A stretch of DNA of 64,000 nt from NCBI GenBank assembly GCA_037043015.1, contig CM073327.1, positions 12,816,727 to 12,880,726 on the forward strand, read 5' to 3'. This document shows, one piece after another, positions 40,361-54,586 of this stretch. A program made the translations under genes and the position numbers. Position 1 is the first letter of the stretch, and the number at the start of each line of letters is the position of its first letter. Source of the stretch: Bryum argenteum (lineage: Eukaryota; Streptophyta; Bryopsida; Bryales; Bryaceae). The notes under the pieces were generated by a model. It was not told where the DNA came from, did no database searches, and worked only from the letters and a program-made list of their open reading frames with translations.

Positions 40361-40884
40361 TTAGAGTATGCCCAACCTGCATATTAGGATGGAGGCTGCA
40401 GTTGCTTTTGCCGTGGGGGGAACTCCAACCCACACAACAAACTTGTAACCCGGTTAAGAGGGACGACATTCCCTCGATTATAGCTCGTCATAATTCGGAA
40501 TTTTACAGTCTTTTCTCTCACATTTGAAGTTTCTATTATAACACCTGCTTCATTAAAAGTGCACGTGGCATTTGAAAAGTACACATGTCAATATTTTTGC
40601 AATGAGACAAATTTAGAAGGCAATTTGGGGCCAATTTTTTTTTTAAAGATGACATTCATAATTAAAGTATGTTTTAGATAATAATCATATTCAATATTAA
40701 TATCTAATAGGTTGTAAGAGAAACAAATCAATTCATGACATTTGATATCGTTATGAAATTAGAACTTATGTATGAAAATTATCTCTAAACTAAATAAAAT
40801 GCAATATAATACAATGCAATGATATCATATAAAATTCGAGGCTTTTATTAGAGCTCAATGACTTTGAAGATCAAATTTCAAATG

Positions 40885-43851
40885 TCAATCCATGTCAACA
40901 CTCGCCATATGTTGCCATTCTATTGACTCTAAATGCCTATACATAAATAGCTTCTGGGCATCGGGTATCTTCAACTCCTTCTCCGTTCTTATGCAACTAA
41001 CATTTGCAAGGTTTCTAGACCCTACTGGACCTTTCCATGCTGCAAAAATTGATTGTATAGGTACAAAATCATTTGGTTCCCGTGAAGGTTCCCAAGAGCG
41101 TTCTATACAATTTCTATACCGTTTGAAGAACTTCCCGTCGTCATCTCGCAACCTTGGTGGCATTTTTGGTTGGTACCAAAGAACATTAACCTCACCATCA
41201 GCAAATTCTTGTCTAACAATTTTCAATACCTTTCCAACAAAAAAAGGTATATCGTTTGTCATATCATCCTCGCTCGTTCCCATGGCAACAAACATCCCTA
41301 TTTCAACGTCCTTGTGAGGATTTAGGGTTGCTAAAAGTACAGTATTCAAATCTTGTGATGTACTAGTTTGATTACAACTTGTTGCCCCACTCGACCACGT
41401 ACACTATTATTTCCGCGTGCGCGCGATGACCTCTAGGCATTTCGAGCGTGGTCCGAAGTAATCATCACCGATCACGGAGGAAGGGATTGTAGAACATTCA
41501 AGATTGCACAATCTTGCTGTACATCCATATCGTTGTTGGAAGCCTCAATACCAATAGGATTCTCCAAGCCAAGTGGCCAAAATAGCGCTCGAGACTCTTC
41601 ACTTCTATCCTTCAAAGGAAACTCAGTCAAATAAGAAATGAGTTTTGAAGTTTCTTCAATTGCTATGAGACTTTTTTCGACATTCACATGTCGAGCAATA
41701 TGTCGTTCTTTCAAGTGGATGAAATCTTGAAGTGCGCGCAATTCCCTATCATCCGCATGGTGAACTTGAGCCAATATTACCTCGGACTCAATTGGAGGAA
41801 CGGAGTGAAGGCACTCGTGTCCATTTTCTGGCTTCCACAAAGGGGTTCTTGCGTAACTCTTATATTGGACATGAGGCTTATTGTTCCGCATATAAAATCG
41901 AAAATGATGAGGTTGACTTGGTACCAACAAATGCATCTGATTTTAAATAAGGAGTAATAAATTTCTTCCAATCTCTTATGTGCTCAAAGTGCTCGGCATG
42001 CACAAAAGGCTCTGTATGTGTTGGCCTTTCACGAACACATTCCAACAATTCTTGAAGACTATTGATATCTTGTCGCTTCAATGCTGAAGATATGGAACTC
42101 AAACGTTGATCAATATCTTCATGAGTGTGACCAACTATCAAAAAAGATAATTGGATTTCCTTGAAAAAACCCAATGCAACCAACGTTGCACACATTGCAA
42201 GTATATATATATTCTTGTTTTCCCTTCCGCAATTATCTGCTTGAATGCGAAGAAGCGGAGGTAATTTACCTCGACGCCGTTTCACATCTTGGATAACCTT
42301 CATGATTGATGTTACTACCTGGTTGCTATCGTGTTTGTGATGAGAATCCACCCACATATGACAATATAGTCCTATTCCATGCACCAATACTCCACATAGA
42401 TGAGTCTTCACGTATCGGGACTCAATTCCTTTCACATTCTGCTTGATTTTTGGCACGTACGTTGTATTTTGATCCATTCCATCAATAATTATACTCATGC
42501 TCTCATCTGGGCTCTCTATTGCAGCCAATCTTGCTCGAGTATAATCTTTCCGCTCTTCTATGGCCAAATCTAAATGTAGACGATAGGCTGTATCAACGGC
42601 TTCCTTCATTGCTTCGTTGGGTAGCGATTTTCGAGTTTCTTTGTATTCCCAACAATGTTGGCACTTTGAAAACCTTGACTCCGCCGAAACATGCACATTA
42701 GGAAATTCAGTTCTCCACATTTTAGAAAAAGTGGACAACCCTATTTGATTCTCTCCCATTCGAACAAGTGTGGAGTTGATAATTGTCCATACTTCTTGGC
42801 GACGTACACTCATGGGCAAACAAACTACAGGGAGAATTACTCCATCACTTCTTCGGCGAACTTGCCTATGGGGTTGAGTTTCACCAAATATATTGATGTA
42901 TGATTCAAATTTTGCCCTTGCCATGGATATATGCGATGTTTCTCGACGGCTACCTCTGTTACCATGGATAGCTTCATACATATCTATTTCTCGAATATTA
43001 GATATGATCTTGGTCAATCTTCTCCTGCAATATCCAATGGCTAGCGCAAAGCAACTATTGCAAACCGGACTTCCACAAATCTTTGTCTCAAATTTGCATT
43101 GTTCCGGCCTTTCTAGAGAAGTTACCTTGAATGCCCTCAAGGTAGTGAGTAACCAAGTTGCTCTTTGTTTGTAATCTTTACTTTTCCAAGCTTGATAGCG
43201 CAGAGATAAGATATCAAACGAATCGATTGAAGCCAAACACCATTTTGAGCAAATTCTTTGTTCTTTTGCAAAGGTGACCGCCGCCAATGTCACCTTCTCC
43301 TTTCTTGCAACTCCAATGATCCGGGGACCTTTTGTAGCTTTTTGTTTGCGATTCCTAAAAATGTATGAGTTTTTTTAGGAGATGAAGGCAACCCGTCCAA
43401 TGAGTGTACAAACCTTGGAAATATTGTACTATTGTTGCTTCCAACTTGACTTTCATGTGGAATTGATGGTTGTAGGTAAGGAAGTCTTTGCCCCGGATTG
43501 GAAGGTGGATTCGGCCTCATTTCCTTTACTTGAGACCTAGGCCACCTTATAATTCTGTCCAAACACTCTTCCATTCTCGCCATGTGTAATTCGTACACAT
43601 GTGCACTTCCATCTAAAATGCTCTTCACACAAACTACTTCATCTATAATTCGTATTGGACGACCTCCAACAATACTTCCAACTCTCACTTCTTGCACCAC
43701 ACCATGAGCAACCTCTCGTGCCATCAATGTTAAATAGAGAAACAAGTTTTGAATTCTCAAATTCAGACCATGTTCCAACCAATGCCGATCCTTCTCCACT
43801 TGAACTAGGGCCACCACCCGAAGATAGACTACAACGTAAAGCCCCATTCAT
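40885..43851 (-). CDS. DDE-type transposase-like protein (DUF7869 type)
   Basis: The longest open frame (43293-41878) is flanked by continuing frames upstream (43851-43330) and downstream (41936-41472, 41349-40885). The N-terminal region is basic and, after an acceptor-like 'acatttttag' near 43,366, reads RKQKATKGPRIIGVARKEK into the main frame, so at least one intron is likely. The core has an RNase H-fold order: IIDGMDQ (about 42,470-42,492), then HLCGVLVHG, IQADNCGRENKN (about 42,210-42,246) and VGHTHEDIDQRLSS (about 42,100-42,137), giving candidate acidic residues D, D and E/D. Cysteine pairs (SKCQHC) lie upstream. The C-terminal piece has VGKVLKIVRQ...VNVLWYQP, like a BAH/SH3-type barrel. 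I recall this set as the uncharacterised eukaryotic family named DUF7869. Frame breaks near 41,925 and a stop-rich gap at 41,350-41,470 mean this copy may be inactive or more spliced than I can model. Confidence 0.75.
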
Positions 43852-43889
43852 ATCTGCATAAAAAAATTGAATGTCAAACAAGTAAGGGG

Positions 43890-46560
43890 TTAGGCATGTG
43901 CCGACCTATGATAAAACATGTGAACGTACAAATATAAAGATTCATGTTAAAGAAGTAACAAAGAAGTGGCCGAAAATCCAAATCCAAGTCAACAAATTCT
44001 ATAAGGGTGGGCATGTGCCTACCCTTCATGTAACTTACAAATATACAATTGTTGAGGGAGGTGTGAATTTTGAATCCACTCCCTATTCACTAAATGTAAA
44101 ATAAATGATATTAAAGAGTTACAAAGTGTCGGTACTTCGATGAAAGCTCACAAATATAAGTGAATATTTTTATAAGCGTAAGCATGCGCCTACACCTAAT
44201 GGAACATACAAATATACAATTATCGAAAGCGGGGTAGGCACGTGCCTACCTTAGATAAAACATATGGATATATAAAAATAAAATTTCATGTAAAAAGAGT
44301 TCTAAAGAGTAACAGATAAGATACGACTTTAGCAAAAAATCGAGATCCAAGTGACTAAATTCTATCGAGGTTGGCATATGCCTACTCCTTATACAAATTT
44401 ACAAATAACTTACAGATATAAAATTATTAAAGGCAAGGAAGGCAAGTGCATACCACAATTATTCAATAATTTGAGAATGTTAAAGAAAATAATGTAAATA
44501 ATGTTCAAGACCTTAAAGACTCGGTACAACGCAACAACGCAATCCAAAATCCCTAATACAAGTAACCAAATTCCGTAGGGGTTGGCATGTGCCTACCCTT
44601 CATAGAACTCACATAATATTCAATTATTGAAGGCGGGGTAGGCATGTATCTACCGGGCTTCAATAATTTACACATAGATAATTTTCTAGGTAGAAGTTCG
44701 AAAATGGGTACAACCTACTTGACATATTGCAAATACAAGTGATTAACCCCTAAAAATCCAGGAAAGCCGATTCGGTTTTCTGAGATTTCGGGCAGCTCAT
44801 TTTAAGCATTTAAACTGATATTTTTGCCTAAGATTTTTATTGGGTGCTCCACATGCAGTAATGTGTATGTGGTAAAATTTTCAAAGTCAAATTTTAATTT
44901 TATAACCTTCATCTAGAAATTTTAGGTTTCAAGTCCAAATCGGGCAGTTTAAAATAATTTTTTTTAATTTTTTTTTTTTTTTAGAAATATGTTCATTACC
45001 AAATTACTATTCAAATTCCAATGTGTCCGAAGTCAAAAAGTTTACCAATTTTACAAGGGCAGCCTCCAAAACTTTCAAAAACAATCTTCACAATTTCTAG
45101 TAATTTTACAATTTTTTCTTTCAAAAATTGCCAAAATTCGAGATTTTGGATTTTTTCCAAGATTTTTTTTTTCAAAATTCACATTATCATAAATGCACCT
45201 TCTCACCGTCGAGATTTTTCTCAAACTAAATATATCATACGTGGTGCTTGTTTTACTATATGGTTGTTTTTAGACCTTCTTTCATAAAATATTTTACATT
45301 AAGGTCAAAAAGTGGAATTGGTCTCTAAAATTTTGCATGAGCATAACCAACTTGAATACCTACATGAAAAAAAATGAGGGAAAAATATTTGGAATAACAA
45401 TCATCAAGTTGCCCTTGGCACCATTTAGACAATGCCTCTCACGCAGTGGCAAAAAAAAAGTGTTGGTCAAACTTTGATTGTTATGATCTCACAAATGAAA
45501 AACATCCAACGGTTGAAATTTTGACCAGTCCTTTGTATACAAGTTAGGTACAAGATCTTACGGTTCAAAATCTAAAACCAGAAAAAAAAGTTTCTCCATT
45601 TCCCCATCTCCCAACGAAGGTGAAAAATGGCAGTTTTTGGTTCTGGAGGTCGAGGAAACCCCTGGATTTTTAGGGGTTAAATTCTAAATCCATAGGCATG
45701 TGCATACCACAATGATTCAATGATTAGAGAATAAATAATGTTCAAAAGCTTAAAGACTCGGTACAACGCTACAACACAATCCGAAATCTCTAATACAAGT
45801 CACCAAATTCCATAGGGGTTGGCATGTGCCTACCCTTCATTGAACTTACAAAATATTCGATTAATGAAAGCGGGGTAGGCACGTGCCTACCTTAGATAAA
45901 ACATATGGATATATAAAAATAAAATTTCATGTAAAAAGAGTTCAAAAGAGTAACACGTAAAGTACGACTCTAGCAAAAAATCGTGATTGAAGTGACTAAA
46001 TTTTATTGAGGTTGGCATATGCCTACTCCTTGTACAAATTTACAAATAACTTATAGATATAAAATTATTGAAGGCAAGGTAGGCAAGTGAATACCACAAT
46101 TATTCAATAATTTGAGAATGTTAAAGAAAATAATGTAAATAATGTTCAAGACCTTAAAGACTCAGTACAACGCTACAACGCAATCCAAAATCCCTAATAC
46201 AAGTAACCTAATTCCATAGGGGTTGGCATGTGCCTACCCTTCACGGAACACACAAAATATCCAATTATTGAAGGCGGGGTAGGCATGTATCTACCGGGCT
46301 TCAATAATTTACACATGGTTAATTTTCTAGGTAGAAGTTCGAAAATGGGTACAACCTGCTTGGCAAATCGCAAATACAAGTGATCAAATTCTAAATCGGT
46401 AGGCATGTGCATACGACAATTATTCAACAGTTAGAGAATAAATAATGTTCAAATCCCTAATACAAGTAACCAAATTTCATAGGGGTTGGCATGTGCCTAC
46501 CCTTCATAAAACTCACAAAATATCCAATCATTGAAGGCAGGGTAGGCATGTATTACCGGG
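43890..46560. repeat. Array of palindromic GTAGGCAYRTGCCTAC motifs
   Basis: About 18 motif copies, spaced roughly 50-140 bp, each centred on GGCAYRTGCC. The best are perfect palindromes (GTAGGCACGTGCCTAC near 44,234 and 45,873). Others are half-decayed (GGCATATGCC, GGCAAGTGCA, GGCATGTATC). The motifs ride on a larger duplication: 44,160-44,745 and 45,690-46,420 are colinear, with the same order of motif variants. The array starts just upstream of the transposase start. A nested TTAA element splits it at 44,747-45,676. Confidence 0.88.
44747..45676. mobile_element. TTAA-flanked element, 930 bp, in the palindrome array
   Basis: Perfect 16-bp inverted ends (CCCCTAAAAATCCAGG) flanked by TTAA (44743-44746 and 45677-45680). 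An undisrupted copy of the target region at about 46,372 reads TACAAGTGATCAAATTCTAA, confirming precise insertion. It is younger than the host transposon. No transposase frame. Confidence 0.9.
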
Positions 46561-47062
46561 CTTTAATAATTTCAACATAAATCATAAATTACATAGTTAT
46601 TAATGACTGAACTAAAAAGTGTATTTTTAAAAAAGAAATTCAATTTTGAACTAATATAAGTTGTGGGTTATAATGTTACCTTAACAAAATTTGGAGAATA
46701 CTTCGACTTTGTTTAGTTTGAACTATGCATGATTTCCATTTTCGATTTAAACCAACCGGATGTTTTTAAAACTCCACGGGATGGAATGTTTATGACCAAC
46801 CATCACACTCACCAATTGGAAAAGAAATGAACTATGATTTCGTATCCTCTTATAGTTGCTAGGAGCACCTTCACATAGTCACTTTGCCCTAATTTGTGGC
46901 GGCTACACTTTTACTTTTAAGAGTTAGGTTTAGGTATGAGTTAGGTTAGGTTAACCTTAATTCATTTTGTGGATAGCTGAAGAGAGAGAGAGAGGGTTGC
47001 TTTCTCCGTAGCAACAAGTCCACCGTTGATGTAGACAAATAAACGGCACGGCTTTGCGACTC

Positions 47063-48103
47063 TCACAAGAAAACAGGCCCGACGTTGGTGACGATCATCG
47101 GCATTGCAGCTGAAGACTTCAACCTCTTGCTTTTGGCCGCGCTTCTAATCCAGTACTTGTACATCGCCGGCGACCTGCACCGTAAGTAGAAATTCTTCCT
47201 TAAACAACCAAGATGCTCATGAACCTCCAAATGAAGCTCCGTAGCCGAATAAGAGCACAATCGTACCCAGTGACTAGGTGCTGATGAAGAGTTTCTCAAA
47301 TTGGCTGTGGCCTCGGTAACTGTGGCCTCCGTATTTGTTTGCAACTCGGCAGCTAGCTTAGAGGCCTTGGATTCATTCTCTTCCACGACAGCTTTAGGAA
47401 CCTTCTCAGCATAGTCGGCAATGCTTGTTTTCTTCACGAGAGCCTCCTGTTGCCTGTGAACGTTGTCACCCCAACACATCACAATCAATTGAGGTAGGAA
47501 TGATACGAAGCCTGGCTATAATGAGACCAAAGGAGTAAATTACCCGAGAAGGTCGTCACGTTTCTTCGCAACCTAGAAATCTCTACGCTTTGATCAACCA
47601 CATTCCGGAGTAACAAATACACTGTCGTGTTCTTATCCACAACGACATCAGTAGCGTGAGATTCAGCGTGAGATTCGGACGTATGTGATGTGCTGCTCTT
47701 GCCGTCAGATGTGCTGCTCTTGCTAGTGGTCTATCATATCCTTGGAATGCGAAGTGGTTCTTCTATGTGCACATACGAAGAAGAACTCTTTCAATTCTTG
47801 ACCAAATCCTATTGGATGGCAAGTTAATTTTACGCATTCAAAGCCTGAGGTCGATACACAGTTTGGTAGTTCGGTAGGAGTCTATCGCTTGTGCTCTCGT
47901 TTGCATCTCCTAGCACACGGCGTGAATATTCTGTACTTTGACTAGATTAGCATCGTGAACGTAATGTTTGTAGTAATCTTCTTTGGTAGCCACTTTCAAC
48001 GACCTTCCCGATGATTCTAGGTTCTCAATCGACTTTGTATCATTTTGTTTTTCCTCATACCAACCGAAAAGTTGATTCTCGGTTAAATTAGGAATAGCTA
48101 GTC
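47063..48103 (-). pseudogene. Decayed gene inside the transposon, unknown product
   Basis: Minus-strand blocks of protein-like sequence. First AIPNLTENQLFGWYEEKQND...EDYYKHYVHDANLVKVQNIHAVC (about 48,103-47,915), with an acceptor-like 'gactag' before it and a stop after it. Then a Ser/Thr/His-rich stretch leading to DKNTTVYLLLRNVVDQSVEI (about 47,720-47,545). Finally, after an acceptor-like 'ttcacag', QQEALVKKTSIADYAEKVPK...SKLAAELQTNTEA... to a stop at 47,063. The blocks are charged and helical, but the splice phases I can find do not join cleanly. It may be a captured host gene or a third transposon gene. Unrecognised. Confidence 0.4.
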
Positions 48104-48308
48104 AGTAAGTGATATATAACTACAGAGAGAAATGCTTGGTAATAGTATGGTCCAAATTTAGTGGTATTTATGCCCGGATCATCGTAAAGTTCACCTAGCT
48201 GGTAACTAGTAACTGTGTATTCATCATGTCAGGAGGAATTCCAAATTAAAGCCAAACCTTCCCCTTGAATCTAGTTTCCAGAACCTAACCTGAAAGCACT
48301 TGAAATTG

Positions 48309-49540
48309 ACTTAGGAGGGTGGGAACATGCCTACCGTGTTCAAATTCCGACTTTGTTTCTGTAAGTGCAAAGGATGAAGGAAAGGCCCATGCCTACTTCT
48401 TCTTTGTAATTAGATTGGATTTTGGTGACTTAGGAGGGTGGGCACATGCCTACCGTGTTCAAATTCCGACTTTGTTTCTGTAAGTGCAAAGGATGAAGGA
48501 AAGGCCCATGCCTACTTCTTCTTTGTAATTAGATTGGATTTTGGTGACTTAGGAGGGTGGGCACATGCCTACCGTGTTCAAATTCCAACTTTGTCTTTGT
48601 GAGTGCAAAGGATGAAGGATAGGCCCATGCCTACCTCCTCTTTGTAATTAGATTGATTTTTGGTGACTTAGGAGGGTGGGCACATGCTTACCGTGTTCAA
48701 ATTCCGACTTTGTTTTTATGAGTGCAAAGGATGAAGGATAGGCCCATGCCTACCTCCTCTTTGTAATTAGATTGATTTTTGGTGACTTAGGAGGGTGGGC
48801 ACATGCTTACCGTGTTCAAATTCCGACTTTGTTTTTGTGAGCGCAAAGGATGAAGGATAGGCCCATGCCTACCTCCTCTTTGTAATTAGATTGATTTTTG
48901 GTGACTTAGGAGGGTGGGCACATGCTTACCGTGTTCAAATTCCGACTTTGTTTTTGTGAGCGCAAAGGATGAAGGATAGGCCCATGCCTACCTCCTCTTT
49001 GTAATTAGATTGATTTTTGGTGACTTAGGAGGGTGGGCACATGCCTACCTCCTCTTTTGTAATTAGATTGATTTTTGGTGACTTAGGAGGGTGGGCACAT
49101 GCCTACCGTGTTCAAATTCCGACTTTGTTTTTATGAGTGCAAAGGATGAAGGATAGGCCCATGCCTACCTCCTCTTTGTAATTAGATTGATTTTTGGTGA
49201 CTTAGGAGGGTGGGCACATGCCTACCTCCTCTTTGTAATTAGATTGATTTTTGGTGACTTAGGAGGGTGGGCACATGCCTACCGTGTTCAAATTCCGACT
49301 TTGTTTTTGTGAGTGCAAAGGATGAAGGATAGGCCCATGCCTACCTCCTCTTTGTAATTAGATTGATTTTTGGTGACTTAGGAGGGTGGGCACATGCCTA
49401 TCGTGTTCAAATTCCGACTTTGTTTTTGTGAGCGCAAAGGATGAAGGATAGGCCTATGCCTACCTCCTCTTTTGTAATTAGATTGATTTTTGGTGACTTA
49501 GGAGGGTGGGCATATGCCTATCGTGTTTTTTGAAGACTAT
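48309..49540 (+). repeat. 119-bp tandem array upstream of the accessory gene
   Basis: About ten full 119-bp units plus two short ones, each beginning GACTTAGGAGGGTGGGCACA and containing two cores, GTGGGCACATGCCTACC and ATAGGCCCATGCCTACC. These are the same GGC..ATGCCTACC cores as the palindrome array next to the transposase. The array ends about 75 bp before the accessory gene ATG, so it is probably promoter, transposase-binding DNA or both. Confidence 0.92.
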
Positions 49541-49614
49541 GTTTTCTTTTGTGTAAACTTGTATCAATAAAATTTGAAGCTGATATGTTTTTTTGTTGTT
49601 GTCTTTGGTAGAAG

Positions 49615-52600
49615 ATGGAGAGGCAAAAATCACCAAATATTTCCAATCTGGTTGTCGATAGTTTCAAGGATCATGGATGGTGGTTGTCTCGAGCCGAAAA
49701 ATCACCAATTTTGCATATCTCGGAATATGCATGGCTAGACAATGGCCTCTGGTGCGGGTTGACAAATTCTGTTGGCAAAGTAATCAAAATTGTTGAGCTG
49801 GCTTCTACGGATGGTGAAGGCTTATGCGAGGTTTTTTTGCGCGGCCCAAATAAAGATGAGCCTTCGTCTTATATCTTGAAGACCAGAAACATTGTTCGTT
49901 ATGCATTACTCGGAATGCGATTTACCGACTTGCGAAATATTCAAAATGGTGGGAGAGTATTGATATTCACCAACAAGAATTGCGTGAAAGGATTGTGATC
50001 TCCGTGACAAGTATGAGCGAATTGGAAATTGAGAAATTGAGGATTTATATGGAAGAGTACGAAAGGCGAATGCATGGGACGGGATCATCATCAAATGAGA
50101 CTGGAGTATTGGCCGCTGATGATCCTATAATGTATGGACTTTCGTTCGTTTCCGCACGAGATGCTTCTGGATCTGCACAATTATCATCTACTCCATCGTC
50201 GGTTGGCTCCAAATCTAAGAAGAGAAAAGCTAGAAGAAATTCTCGGTTATCTCAAACTCAAGGTGGAGCACAAATTGCACGTGAGAATGAAGGATTAACA
50301 GAGTATGATTTTGTTGAACCTATACAACCGTCTTTGCAAAGTCGTGGGAACACTAATCAGCTTCTTTCTGCTGGTACTACTCTACAGAAAGCTGTCAAGG
50401 ATGATGAATTCATGCTGCCAACTCAAAGCGAAATCGATTCCGGATTTGTATTTGGAAAAGATTTCTCATTTGGAGTAGATGTTGCAAAGATATACGACCA
50501 AAGAAGCAACATTTTAACGAATCAACGGATGTTAAATGTTGCAAATGCAAACTCTGTTTACAAGAGACTTAGGGAAAATCAGTTTCCCGAAGCAAATTTG
50601 ATGACTTTACGACCGATGCACTATGTACCACCTACGAATGATTCTGGAGAGAGTTCAGAACCATACATATTCAAAAAAGGAGAAAGTAGGAGTGATTTTT
50701 TGCGATGCCTTGACTTGATGCCAGGCAATACTCCGCAGGAAAAAAGAGGGAAGTTTTTACCTCTTGTGACCTGGGAACCCGTTGATGGTCAACATATCTT
50801 ACATGCTTGTCAAGTGTTAGCAGAGAAGGATCGGATACTTGGTATACTATCGGATGAAGAGTTTCAAAGGTTGTTTACTAAGCGACCGGCATTGGTTGTG
50901 GTGTACAATGAAGAATTGAACTATCTAGTGGCATCGCATGAGAAGAACGAGGAAAATACAATGAGAAAGTACCATAGTACGGTAGGGGAAACCCTTGAGA
51001 AGATACGTATGGTTTGGAAAGAATTTGGCTCGCCTAATCCGTACAACAATGAAGATGTGGAGAAGAGGCGTTTATTTCTTCAATGTTTACCTAGCATTAC
51101 TAGTAGTCGCCTCGACAATGCAGATAAAAAACTATCTGTTCAGAAGATGAATCTTTTATTCAGAGACTATATTTCTATGGCAACAGTCAATGATGACTGC
51201 TGGATGGCTTTGAAGGCAATGTGTAACGCATATGATCATGGGTTCATATATTTTTCCGAAAAAGATAAGGTTCACGAGTTACAAGGAGTAAAAGGAAAGC
51301 ACAAGAAATCAAAGACTTATGAACGTAAGCGTATGGCCATTACATGGTTAAGACCTTTGCAAGGGACTACTTCAAATGATTTTATTGTATTGTGCCAAGG
51401 AGCTACTGTAACCGCAGCAGGTATGGATCAAAAAGTTTATTTTGGTCCAAAAAGTGTTGATCCTATTCCACACAGATTGTATGCTTGGGCCGAGAAGTCA
51501 AAACTTCGTGCGGGGGTTCGAGAATGCTATGCGATGGCTTGACACTCAAGCAACAGTGGAATACAAGAGAAAAAAAATTGGTTGGATCGTGAGATTACAC
51601 AGTATGGAGACAAGAAAACATTTGATTTTTTGGGGCGCAATGTCACGAATGAGTTCAAAAAGAACTGGATGCACATTAAGGACTTGACTTCATTTGAGAC
51701 TATGGCTAAATACAAGTCTTTAATACCTTTTCAAGATTCAAAATCACGTGAAATTGATTTTGGAAGGAAAACTAGGTTTATTTGCCAATGGAAAAGAGAT
51801 TTTTCCGATTGTGAAGATGGAGTTTGGATGATGGAGTTCGATTTTGGAGAAGGTCAACGGGTGCGTCCTGAGAGACGAAGGTGAAAGTCGGTGGATCCGT
51901 ATTCGAAAGGAAACGGAACATTTTGTCGCCCGCATTATGGACTTTTGATTGTCGAAAGGGTCCAAATGGACTTTTTTGGACCGAGGTTGAGTACAAGTCT
52001 ATCATCCAAAAATTTCGACCTGGATGGGTGATGTCGAGCGTTGGAACGCGATCTTCATGCTTCCAGCTGGTGAGAATGCAGAGTTGGTGATTTCTGCATT
52101 AGGTGTGTCGAACTCACCAGGATGGCAAATTATTACAGGTATTTATGCTTTTGCTCCACAAACACAAGCGCATGGACAAACAATAAAAGATTGTGGTAAA
52201 GTGATTGCAAAATACACTCCACTAGGTCCGATTGTTTTTGTAATGCATCACCCACCAACAACATCAATTGCGGAGAATTTTGCCGAAGATGTTCAGGTTA
52301 TTGATTCTTCATTTATGGAGCCTTTGAATGGTTGGGATATGTGTTCGAAGTACCGGGATGCGCGGTGTCCAGCAGTTGTCGATGAAATCATTTCATCGTA
52401 TTTTCGATCGGATTCGTGGATGATTATTGGTACCGGAATTTCTCATATGATTCATGCTTTAGCTGGCAAAACAACACATCTTGTTTTATTTGAATCCGAC
52501 GAGAACATGACCCTTTGGCTTCGCAAGTGGAAAGCGGAAACGGTAGATGGAATTTCACCGGAAGATGGAGATGAACCGCTTTGGAGAGATATGGAAATCG

Positions 52601-53173
52601 ACTCTTCATCCGATGAAATTGATGAAATCGAGAGCAGTGATGAAGATTGCACTCCTCTACCAAAGAAGATGCGTAGGCAATCAAGAAATGCACCTAATCT
52701 TCAAGGTACAAATACGGCAAAGAAACATTACAAACATGGAAGGAGTTGGAGGAGTTGGAGAAGTTGGAGGTGTTGGAGGAGTCGGAGGCGTTGGAGGAGT
52801 TGGAGGAGTCGGAGGCGTTGGAGGAGTTGGAGGATCTTGTTCTCAAGATTCCTTTCACGTTTCCCCTACCCAAATTTCTCAAGATCAAGATATGAATGAA
52901 GATGGTTACCGTTATTTTTCCGCTTTTAAACTTTGGTTTGATGGTAATCATTGGTATACACGCAAAGAATCACCAAGTGCCTCGAATGAATGCTCTTTCA
53001 TTTATACCCGCACTGAATTACCGTCGTATCATAATACTTCGGAGTTAACTGCAAGGGAACTTGGTGAAGTTGATGTTGGTGTGAATGTAGCAATGGAATT
53101 TGCGGAGAATGCTTTGGTATATCCATCAGACAGAGATCCATTTAGTTTGAATTTACCAAATTCAACAGAGTAG
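49615..53173 (+). CDS. ParB-like / amino-methyltransferase-like accessory protein of the transposon
   Basis: One long coding path in several frames. It starts MERQKSPNISNL at 49,615. It shifts frame near 49,903, where ...NIVRY continues as ITRNAIYRLAKYSKWWESI, and runs to 51,540. Then come two compensating shifts at a G run (about 51,512) and an A run (about 51,571), several shifts at 51,840-52,030, and one near 52,700-52,740. After a Lys/Arg-rich segment (KSKKRKARR), a ParB/Srx-like region has LPLVTWEPVDGQHILHA (about 50,760-50,807; ParB proteins have a GxHR-like signature here). Further on, FVMHHPPTTS (about 52,236-52,265) sits where beta-class N4/N6 methyltransferases have their (D/S)PP(Y/W) motif. 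WMIIGTGISHMIHALAG followed by LVLFESDE (about 52,419-52,500) sits where they have the FxGxG SAM motif. Both motifs are degenerate, so activity is doubtful. The tail has an acidic Ser-rich stretch, a Gly-Val repeat (about 52,740-52,830) and a conserved-looking end. The domain assignment is inference. Confidence 0.65.
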
Positions 53174-53880
53174 ATTCTACATAAATGATAGAGCTTGCAT
53201 TATGTAGAATTATTTCAATTTATGTTGGTTATATAAATATGTACGTGTGTTGCAATTTCCTTTCAATAAATTGATTTGTATTTATTGTGTCTATTATGTA
53301 TTTGAATGTTGTCATTTCATAGAAGTCTTATAATAGTGATGACTTTACTTTGAAAATTTTCAAACACCAAAAGTACAAAAGAAGAATATAGTCTGGGGTA
53401 GGCATGTGCCTATGTCCGATAAGAGCTTTGAAGCAAGAAAACCTAGACTATCAATGAAAGTAGAATAGGCCTACTTTGAATCAATGAGGCACGTTAGCAA
53501 TTTGATGTATCCATGCAAGCAATGACATACCGAGGATATTACACAATCGCTTCGTAGCAGTTGTACATGAGAGGCAAGTATTTATATATAAACTCAGTAA
53601 CAGTAATGAATACAACATCAAGTTAAGGGAAATAATATAATTTATCACATCATACACATTCAACGTTTTTACAAATCTCGAAATTTCTGCCTCTAAATTC
53701 TCAGTTTCATCAAATGTAAATTCCTCTAAATTAAAAATGTGAGAGCAATCGCATGTTTAATAGCACACTATGAAAAAGCTACACAAGTGAAAAGCCATAA
53801 GTTAGACAGACAATATCCAAAAAAGTTACCACTTTGTAGGTCGTTTCTAGAGAAAACGTATTTTACAACAAAAAAAAAAG
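53174..53880. other. 3' flank of the accessory gene, right interior of the transposon
   Basis: AT-rich with a plausible 3' UTR ('tcaataaattgatttg' near 53,262) and one more palindromic motif (GGTAGGCATGTGCCTATG at about 53,399). No gene. Confidence 0.5.
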
Positions 53881-54586
53881 TGCACATGCCTATGAGCACT
53901 TTTAACGAAGCAGGTGTTTAATAAAATGCAAGAGTGCCTCGTGGCAGCCCGTGCCTTGCATCAACCCTTTAAGGGCTGCTGCGGCCCCGCTCACCGGCTC
54001 CCTCGCCAAGCCCCCTTGCCTCCTTCGGCACGCCATGCAGGCTTTCCTTGGACCGACTTGGCGAGCCGAGCTAGGCATGCTCTTAAGTGACATACATCGT
54101 TTTCTTAATTAGTTCATTTCTTTGGAATTTAGTCATAGCGTATTGAATCAGGGTGAAATTGGTGTTGGCCTTCTAAGGTCTCTATTCTTTGCTTGGAATG
54201 TTCCTAACTTTAGTTTTTTGAGGTCTTATTTTCTTTAGATGTTTTCGAAGTTTCTAGCGCGATTGAGCTATTATCCCCCTCTCTTTTCTTTAAGGAGAGT
54301 TTGGCACTCTTTTATTATGCTTTTTACAATAATATCTAGATGATACTCGTATGATATTTAGGTTTGAGTCCAATTTTTTTCAACTTTCTTAAATCAAATC
54401 GGCCATTTGATTACTTCATTTGGATCAAGTAGCTAACATTTTGAAGTAGAGCTAACAGTTTGGTTGTGACTATTAGCTTCTGAGTTTTGAACACTGACTT
54501 TCGAGTATACAGTATATTTGATGCTTCTACTTTACACTCCTTCCGACTATCCACATTCTTTAGACATTGTGGTGTCTACATACGAC

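Follow-up and report, generated by a model that had tools for sequence, protein, structure and literature searches.

A moss DNA transposon with a conserved divergent gene pair and subfamily-specific palindrome arrays, inserted into an older miniature element

Introduction

Where does a transposon end when the inverted repeats around it belong to something else, and what might be the role of a second gene that accompanies its candidate transposase? Both questions are raised by a locus of the moss Bryum argenteum, in a 64,000-nucleotide stretch of contig CM073327.1 (assembly GCA_037043015.1, positions 12,816,727 to 12,880,726 of the forward strand; hereafter the window). An initial annotation had described here a 13.7-kb PIF/Harbinger-like element that carries a DUF7869-type transposase and a fusion reminiscent of ParB and an amino-methyltransferase. 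We find that the element is shorter, that it lies within an older miniature inverted-repeat transposable element (MITE), and that it belongs to a group of plant transposons whose second gene is conserved, the two genes forming a conserved divergent pair. The reading that we consider probable is that of a plant cut-and-paste DNA transposon, inserted into the older MITE, whose accessory second gene (gene 2) encodes a protein that binds arrays of palindromes.

Results

Boundaries of the element

The outer inverted ends that had been taken to bound the element are present in the sequence (GAGTATGCCC at 40364 and GAGCATGCCT at 54082 on the reverse strand, with TTA outside both), and so is a second inverted block, at depths of 176 and 164 bp (40540-40562 and 53896-53918; 22 of 23 bases complementary). 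The window's own genome (259 Mb, 25 contigs) was searched with a left-end query of 1,137 bases (best 40 of 88 candidates scored) and a right-end query of 933 bases (best 40 of 62 candidates scored). Among the left-end matches listed, nine other long copies (93-98% identity) start at query positions 171-179, corresponding to about 40540, and never at position 1; 20 other matches are confined to query positions 1-175, at 76-86% identity; and in none of the 46 other matches listed is the outer left piece joined to the element. Among the right-end matches listed, 10 other copies (87-100%) terminate at query positions 768-777, or about 53918; 15 further matches are confined to positions from 776 onward, and one more starts at 770. 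A genome search with terminal sequence, which the initial annotation had proposed as a way to find full copies, has thus returned, among the matches listed, copies that lack the outer ends.

When the outer left and right pieces are joined, with the 4-bp flank written once, they align unbroken to two MITEs elsewhere in the genome, L026 and L028, at 80% identity over 270 and 230 columns, respectively. Because the joined pieces match these unbroken copies, the outer 175 and 164 bp together make up a single older Harbinger/Tourist-like MITE, split in two where the transposon landed; the TTA flanks are a property of the MITE and not of the transposon. The unbroken copies are empty sites that do not match 40363/54083, an observation that the initial annotation itself had named as telling against its boundaries, and together with the ends of the other copies they rule out the outer repeats as ends of the element. 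Since the other copies end at the inner block and the outer pieces form a separate MITE, the inner block is the true terminal repeat, and the element spans 40540-53918, or 13,379 bp, of which 930 bp are a nested insert. The MITE repeat is also interrupted by other sequence in L027 and further along in L028.

40364 to 40539, plus strand: left part of the MITE, outside the transposon; includes the transposon's left 4-bp flank TTAT
40540 to 53918, no strand: transposon proper, subfamily A1; 13,379 bp; 4-bp flanks TTAT/TAAT, imperfect
40540 to 40562, plus strand: left terminal inverted repeat AACACCTGCTTCATTAAAAGTGC
53896 to 53918, minus strand: right terminal inverted repeat; 1 mismatch in 23
53919 to 54082, plus strand: right part of the MITE, outside the transposon; includes the right 4-bp flank TAAT (53923 to 54082 without the flank)

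Terminal repeats and target duplication

The element ends in 23-bp inverted repeats, which read AACACCTGCTTC(A/G)TTAAAAGTGC. Related families share the tip AACAC and differ further in, the ends being AACACTYGATTC... in A2 and AACACARTATTRAGG... in B. Target duplications were scored in 16 sets of ends from three families (eight A1 including the window, three short A, two A2 and three B). A perfect 4-bp repeat, mostly AT-rich, flanks 13 of the 16 copies, and chance 4-bp matches occur in 12 of 240 cross pairs; no copy among the 16 has a perfect flanking repeat of 5-8 bp or of 3 bp, the length of the TWA duplication expected under the earlier PIF/Harbinger assignment. The three short copies (3.7 kb) have the same ends, with a longest stop-free stretch of at most 227 codons. 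Terminal inverted repeats, a target duplication of fixed length and several copies, as found for DDE-type cut-and-paste elements, are thus all present. That this is a DNA transposon of a plant, as first proposed, is borne out by the terminal repeats and copies and, for the host, by 39 WRKY-domain matches, compared with none in 14 control genomes.

The gene pair

Two divergent gene bodies lie within the element, at about the following positions, in agreement with the initial annotation.

40894 to 43766, minus strand: gene 1, putative DUF7869 transposase; open reading frame at 41878 to 43374; D298/D380/HxHEDxD site; three frame changes
49621 to 53155, plus strand: gene 2, conserved partner with no family match; WEPVDGQH motif; at least three frame changes, intron possible

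The DUF7869 assignment of gene 1 stands (PF25273, E 1.2e-50). In the window copy and three relatives it is the only significant Pfam match, and none of the four gives a significant match to a PIF/Harbinger transposase domain. The predicted structure of gene 1 has an RNase H-like core with conserved acids, and on this model the protein is likely an RNase H-fold, DDE-type transposase with D298, D380 and HxHEDxD as its conserved acids. DUF7869 occurs also in lancelets, mussels, sea urchins and a liverwort.

Gene 2 has no significant match in Pfam, PHROGs or NCBIfam, and no Myb domain was detected at E<=10 in the 11 members scanned, some of them partial. At least 10 homologues were found among 5.8 billion proteins (6 + 4; best candidates scored), with naming that stops at 'hypothetical protein'; the WEPVDGQH motif is near-invariant among gene 2 relatives. 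When compared with an open relative, gene 1 of the window has three frame changes and gene 2 at least three; the window copy is decayed, and intact protein is probably made from neither gene. Substitution rates indicate that both proteins are under purifying selection: in pairs of copies, the ratio of nonsynonymous to synonymous rates (dN/dS) is 0.23-0.33 across 3 comparisons of gene 1 and 0.19-0.37 across 4 comparisons of gene 2.

The genome was also searched with gene 2 (best 78 of 267 candidates scored) and with DUF7869 (best 86 of 1625). Gene 2 is abundant, with at least 68 merged loci, and the proposal of a second gene in the transposon is upheld: a DUF7869 match lies within 25 kb of 45 of the 68 loci, where about one would be expected, and all 45 pairs are divergent (two of the 45 gene-2 loci share one DUF7869 locus).

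Some further observations concern the two genes. A compact gene-2 relative of 609 codons (L054:816-2642) does not have the long acidic tail. Within gene 2 of the window, at 52741-52834, there is a 9-bp simple repeat, AGGAGTTGG, in 10.4 copies, which translates into repeated glycine-valine or, in another frame, into repeated tryptophan-arginine. The C family (L035 and L036), also two-gene but more distantly related, has single open frames of 1402 codons for gene 2 and 1125 codons for gene 1. A domain common to the last part of gene 1 and the first part of gene 2, hinted at by the inverted repeat I1, received no support when the two were compared.

Comparison of gene 2 with ParB and methyltransferases

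The reading of gene 2 as PARB AND METHYLTRANSFERASE draws on WEPVDGQH and later blocks, which recall, by eye, a ParB domain followed by a beta-class methyltransferase. Gene 2 was compared by hhalign with three sets: 37 ParB domains, 15 methyltransferases (YhdJ and 14 from viruses) and the 16 viral ParB-methyltransferase fusions that were left of 17 after removal of a truncated row. Reversed and unrelated controls were run alongside. Against the ParB and methyltransferase sets the probability was at most 0.4%, compared with at most 0.3% for reversed controls, at most 0.2% for the unrelated control (gene 1) and 100% for positive controls; against the 16 fusions it was 0.1%, the level of reversed controls. 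Pfam scans of gene 2 gave no ParB family, and in the genome ParB_N (PF02195) has a single match at E<=10 (E 1.5, C4:16.7M), away from the gene-2 loci. The DPP[YFW] motif occurs in none of 20 gene-2 rows, the position that resembles DPPY being mostly DCR, DYR or ECR, and the word FxG[SAT]G occurs in one of the 20, remote from the matching place. A tblastn search of phages with gene 2 gave one match, at E 5, and a PDB profile search gave 23 weak matches (best E 0.017) at late profile positions, with no ParB or methyltransferase among them. The structure model of gene 2 has a predicted local distance difference test score (pLDDT) of 45 (13 rows); its top Foldseek match is Noc, a ParB relative, at a non-significant E of 0.44, and other ParB-family chains, KorB among them, rank below. 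From a model of such low confidence, these matches are a hint and not support. With no family match, profiles at control level and no DPPY motif, the proposed identity of gene 2 as ParB plus an amino-methyltransferase lacks support.

Palindrome arrays

The element contains 39 sites with at most 3 mismatches from the 16-bp near-palindrome GTAGGCAYRTGCCTAC, compared with 0.2 in shuffled sequence and none in the other 50 kb of the window. Apart from one, all are located between the genes, with 17 on the side of gene 1 and 21 before gene 2.

43890 to 46504, no strand: 17 near-palindromic sites (GTAGGCAYRTGCCTAC, at most 3 mismatches), upstream of gene 1
48307 to 49527, no strand: tandem array with 21 near-palindromic sites; period 119 bp, 10.3 copies; upstream of gene 2
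53398: 39th near-palindromic site

Other palindromes replace the A1 type in the related subfamilies, GTGGGCAYRTGCCCAC in A2 copies and GTGAGGCAYRTGCCTCAC in A3 copies. Exact sites number 39 (A1), 18 (A2) and 49 (A3) in the genome, and 39, 18 and 46 of these, or 103 of 106, lie within 10 kb of reference points of this transposon group (54 points from gene 1, gene 2 and element-end matches, with a 10-kb range that covers 0.3% of the genome). The reversed palindrome patterns have no occurrences in the genome, and no locus in it has exact sites of two types. Short derivatives retain 8-10 core sites. Each A-type subfamily has its own private near-palindrome array between the genes, a feature that is new here. 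Three lone A3-type sites (G000 C3:28364178, C4:13935257 and C9:12237558) lie away from the gene 1 and gene 2 matches used; they are possibly remnants of lost copies or host sites.

A nested insert

44747 to 45676, no strand: nested insert of 930 bp, TTAA-flanked, with ends CCCCTAAAAATCC; not part of the element

At least 34 places elsewhere in the genome match this insert at 99-100%, and because of these matches, the TTAA flanks and the CCCCTAAAAATCC ends we identify it as a young, high-copy nonautonomous transposon of a TTAA-target group.

Discussion

To which known transposons is this element related? Superfamily characteristics were taken from the available excerpts of PMC10045372 and PMC10294476. 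PIF/Harbinger elements are alike in having two genes per element, and an unrelated Harbinger-like MITE is the insertion target here; the differences are the 4-bp rather than 3-bp target duplication, the DUF7869 transposase and the ends. A PIF/Harbinger-like element of 13.7 kb with TTA targets, bounded by 40364 and 54082, is hardly conceivable: inverted outer ends with TTA outside do exist, but they are found in no other copy among the matches listed, their halves form a continuous MITE elsewhere, and neither the 4-bp targets nor DUF7869 as the sole significant domain of gene 1 fits such an element. The 4-bp duplication is a likeness to Sola, a superfamily for which available excerpts describe 4-bp target duplications, AT-rich in Sola2 (PMC3627910), and a DDE-type transposase (PMC10294476), and in which the moss Physcomitrella is listed with Sola1 (PMC9033089). 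Sola1 averages 5.4 kb in bivalves according to the same excerpts (PMC10294476), whereas the long copies here are about 11-17 kb, and a two-gene member with such a partner is not described in them. Among the literature matches listed there is no description of the present element, and DUF7869 by name gave no match.

In the mechanism that we favor, the gene 1 protein would cut and rejoin the ends through its modelled DDE-type active site and would cleave the target with a 4-bp stagger. An accessory DNA-binding role would fall to the gene 2 protein, which would act on the arrayed palindromes between the genes, probably binding them as a symmetric oligomer. From there it would serve either to build the transposition complex or to protect the promoters of the element from silencing, as VANC does for Arabidopsis VANDALs. 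By this analogy, gene 2 is perhaps an anti-silencing factor like VANC. VANDALs are Mutator-like elements (MULEs), and in a VANC-type system the second protein both binds its motif and strips methylation from DNA. In the available excerpts of PMC5735166, VANC21 binds a short motif that forms dense arrays, often as tandem repeats, in noncoding parts of VANDAL21, and VANC targets differ between related elements. The element described here is alike in having a second protein and dense arrays of short motifs in noncoding parts, which change between related elements, and VANC21 of VANDAL21 is the best precedent for the proposed role of gene 2. There are also differences: the VANC motif given in the excerpts, YAGTATTAY, is non-palindromic, unlike the arrays here, and no Pfam family links gene 2 to VANC, a comparison made through Pfam and not with a VANC sequence directly.

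Other interpretations of the arrays must be considered. Other plant transposons are known to have subterminal arrays to which their own proteins bind, and the arrays here could be binding sites of the gene 1 transposase, with gene 2 acting elsewhere, e.g., in target choice or repair. The retention of sites by short derivatives agrees with this, but gene 1 is present in the B and C families, where such arrays are absent, and 38 of the 39 window sites lie between the genes and not at the ends; neither point is decisive, and we regard binding by gene 1 as somewhat unlikely. It is quite improbable that the palindromes are a functionless by-product of tandem-repeat expansion. Although 21 of the 39 sites are in the 119-bp tandem array, where sites multiply passively, the other 18 are outside it, short derivatives keep their sites, and in three subfamilies the arms differ yet the sites have stayed near-palindromic.

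Gene 2 might alternatively be truly ParB-like, with an inactive methyltransferase-like part, derive from bacteria or phages, and use the palindromes for loading, much as parS is used by ParB. The DNA sites of ParB are typically palindromic, and clusters of palindromic sites exist here; WEPVDGQH is near-invariant, bacterial and phage ParB-methyltransferase fusions are alike in a DGxH-type motif and, by eye, in the order of blocks, and Noc, ParB and KorB chains are among the weak Foldseek matches. These resemblances are countered by profiles that do not rise above reversed controls against the 16 fusions and 37 ParB domains, in a test where positive controls reached 100%, by the absence of DPP[YFW] from all 20 gene-2 rows and of an FxGxG-like motif at the corresponding place, and by the non-significance of Foldseek matches obtained from a model with a pLDDT of 45. 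We consider a ParB-like gene 2 unlikely. An extended version, which we think very doubtful, is a new superfamily with a DUF7869 DDE transposase and a ParB-like, methyltransferase-derived protein that would spread from parS-like arrays, follow a subfamily-specific protein-palindrome code, and protect or activate the element.

Several observations also weigh against the interpretation that we prefer, a cut-and-paste transposon with an accessory gene 2 protein on palindrome arrays. Three of the 16 copies are without a perfect target duplication, namely the window (TTAT/TAAT), C3:1.86M and C1:17.7M, and the ends of the C family were not found. Unpaired within 25 kb are 23 of 68 gene-2 loci and 38 of 82 DUF7869 loci (best candidates only), which is not evidence of absence because only part of the candidates was scored in both searches. 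GGCAYRTGCC palindromes are absent in the B and C families, which keep the gene pair, so that the arrays are not needed by every member; a strongly repeated palindromic word of another kind was also not seen in B. In A1, many of the sites lack symmetry at one position (GTGGGCA...TGCCTAC), and other 9-mers of the tandem unit are each repeated 12-13 times, a frequency similar to that of many half-site words. Outside the element, the window contains 6 instances of a looser 10-bp core, compared with 2.2 in shuffles. Finally, gene 1 or a host protein could just as well be what binds the arrays.

For annotation, the locus illustrates that a split MITE can masquerade as the ends of a transposon. For DUF7869, a domain of unknown function, it indicates a likely role as a transposase. 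The occurrence of three subfamilies, with three palindromes and diverged partner proteins, in one genome offers a natural test of coevolution between a selfish protein and its DNA sites, comparable to that of VANC and VANDAL.

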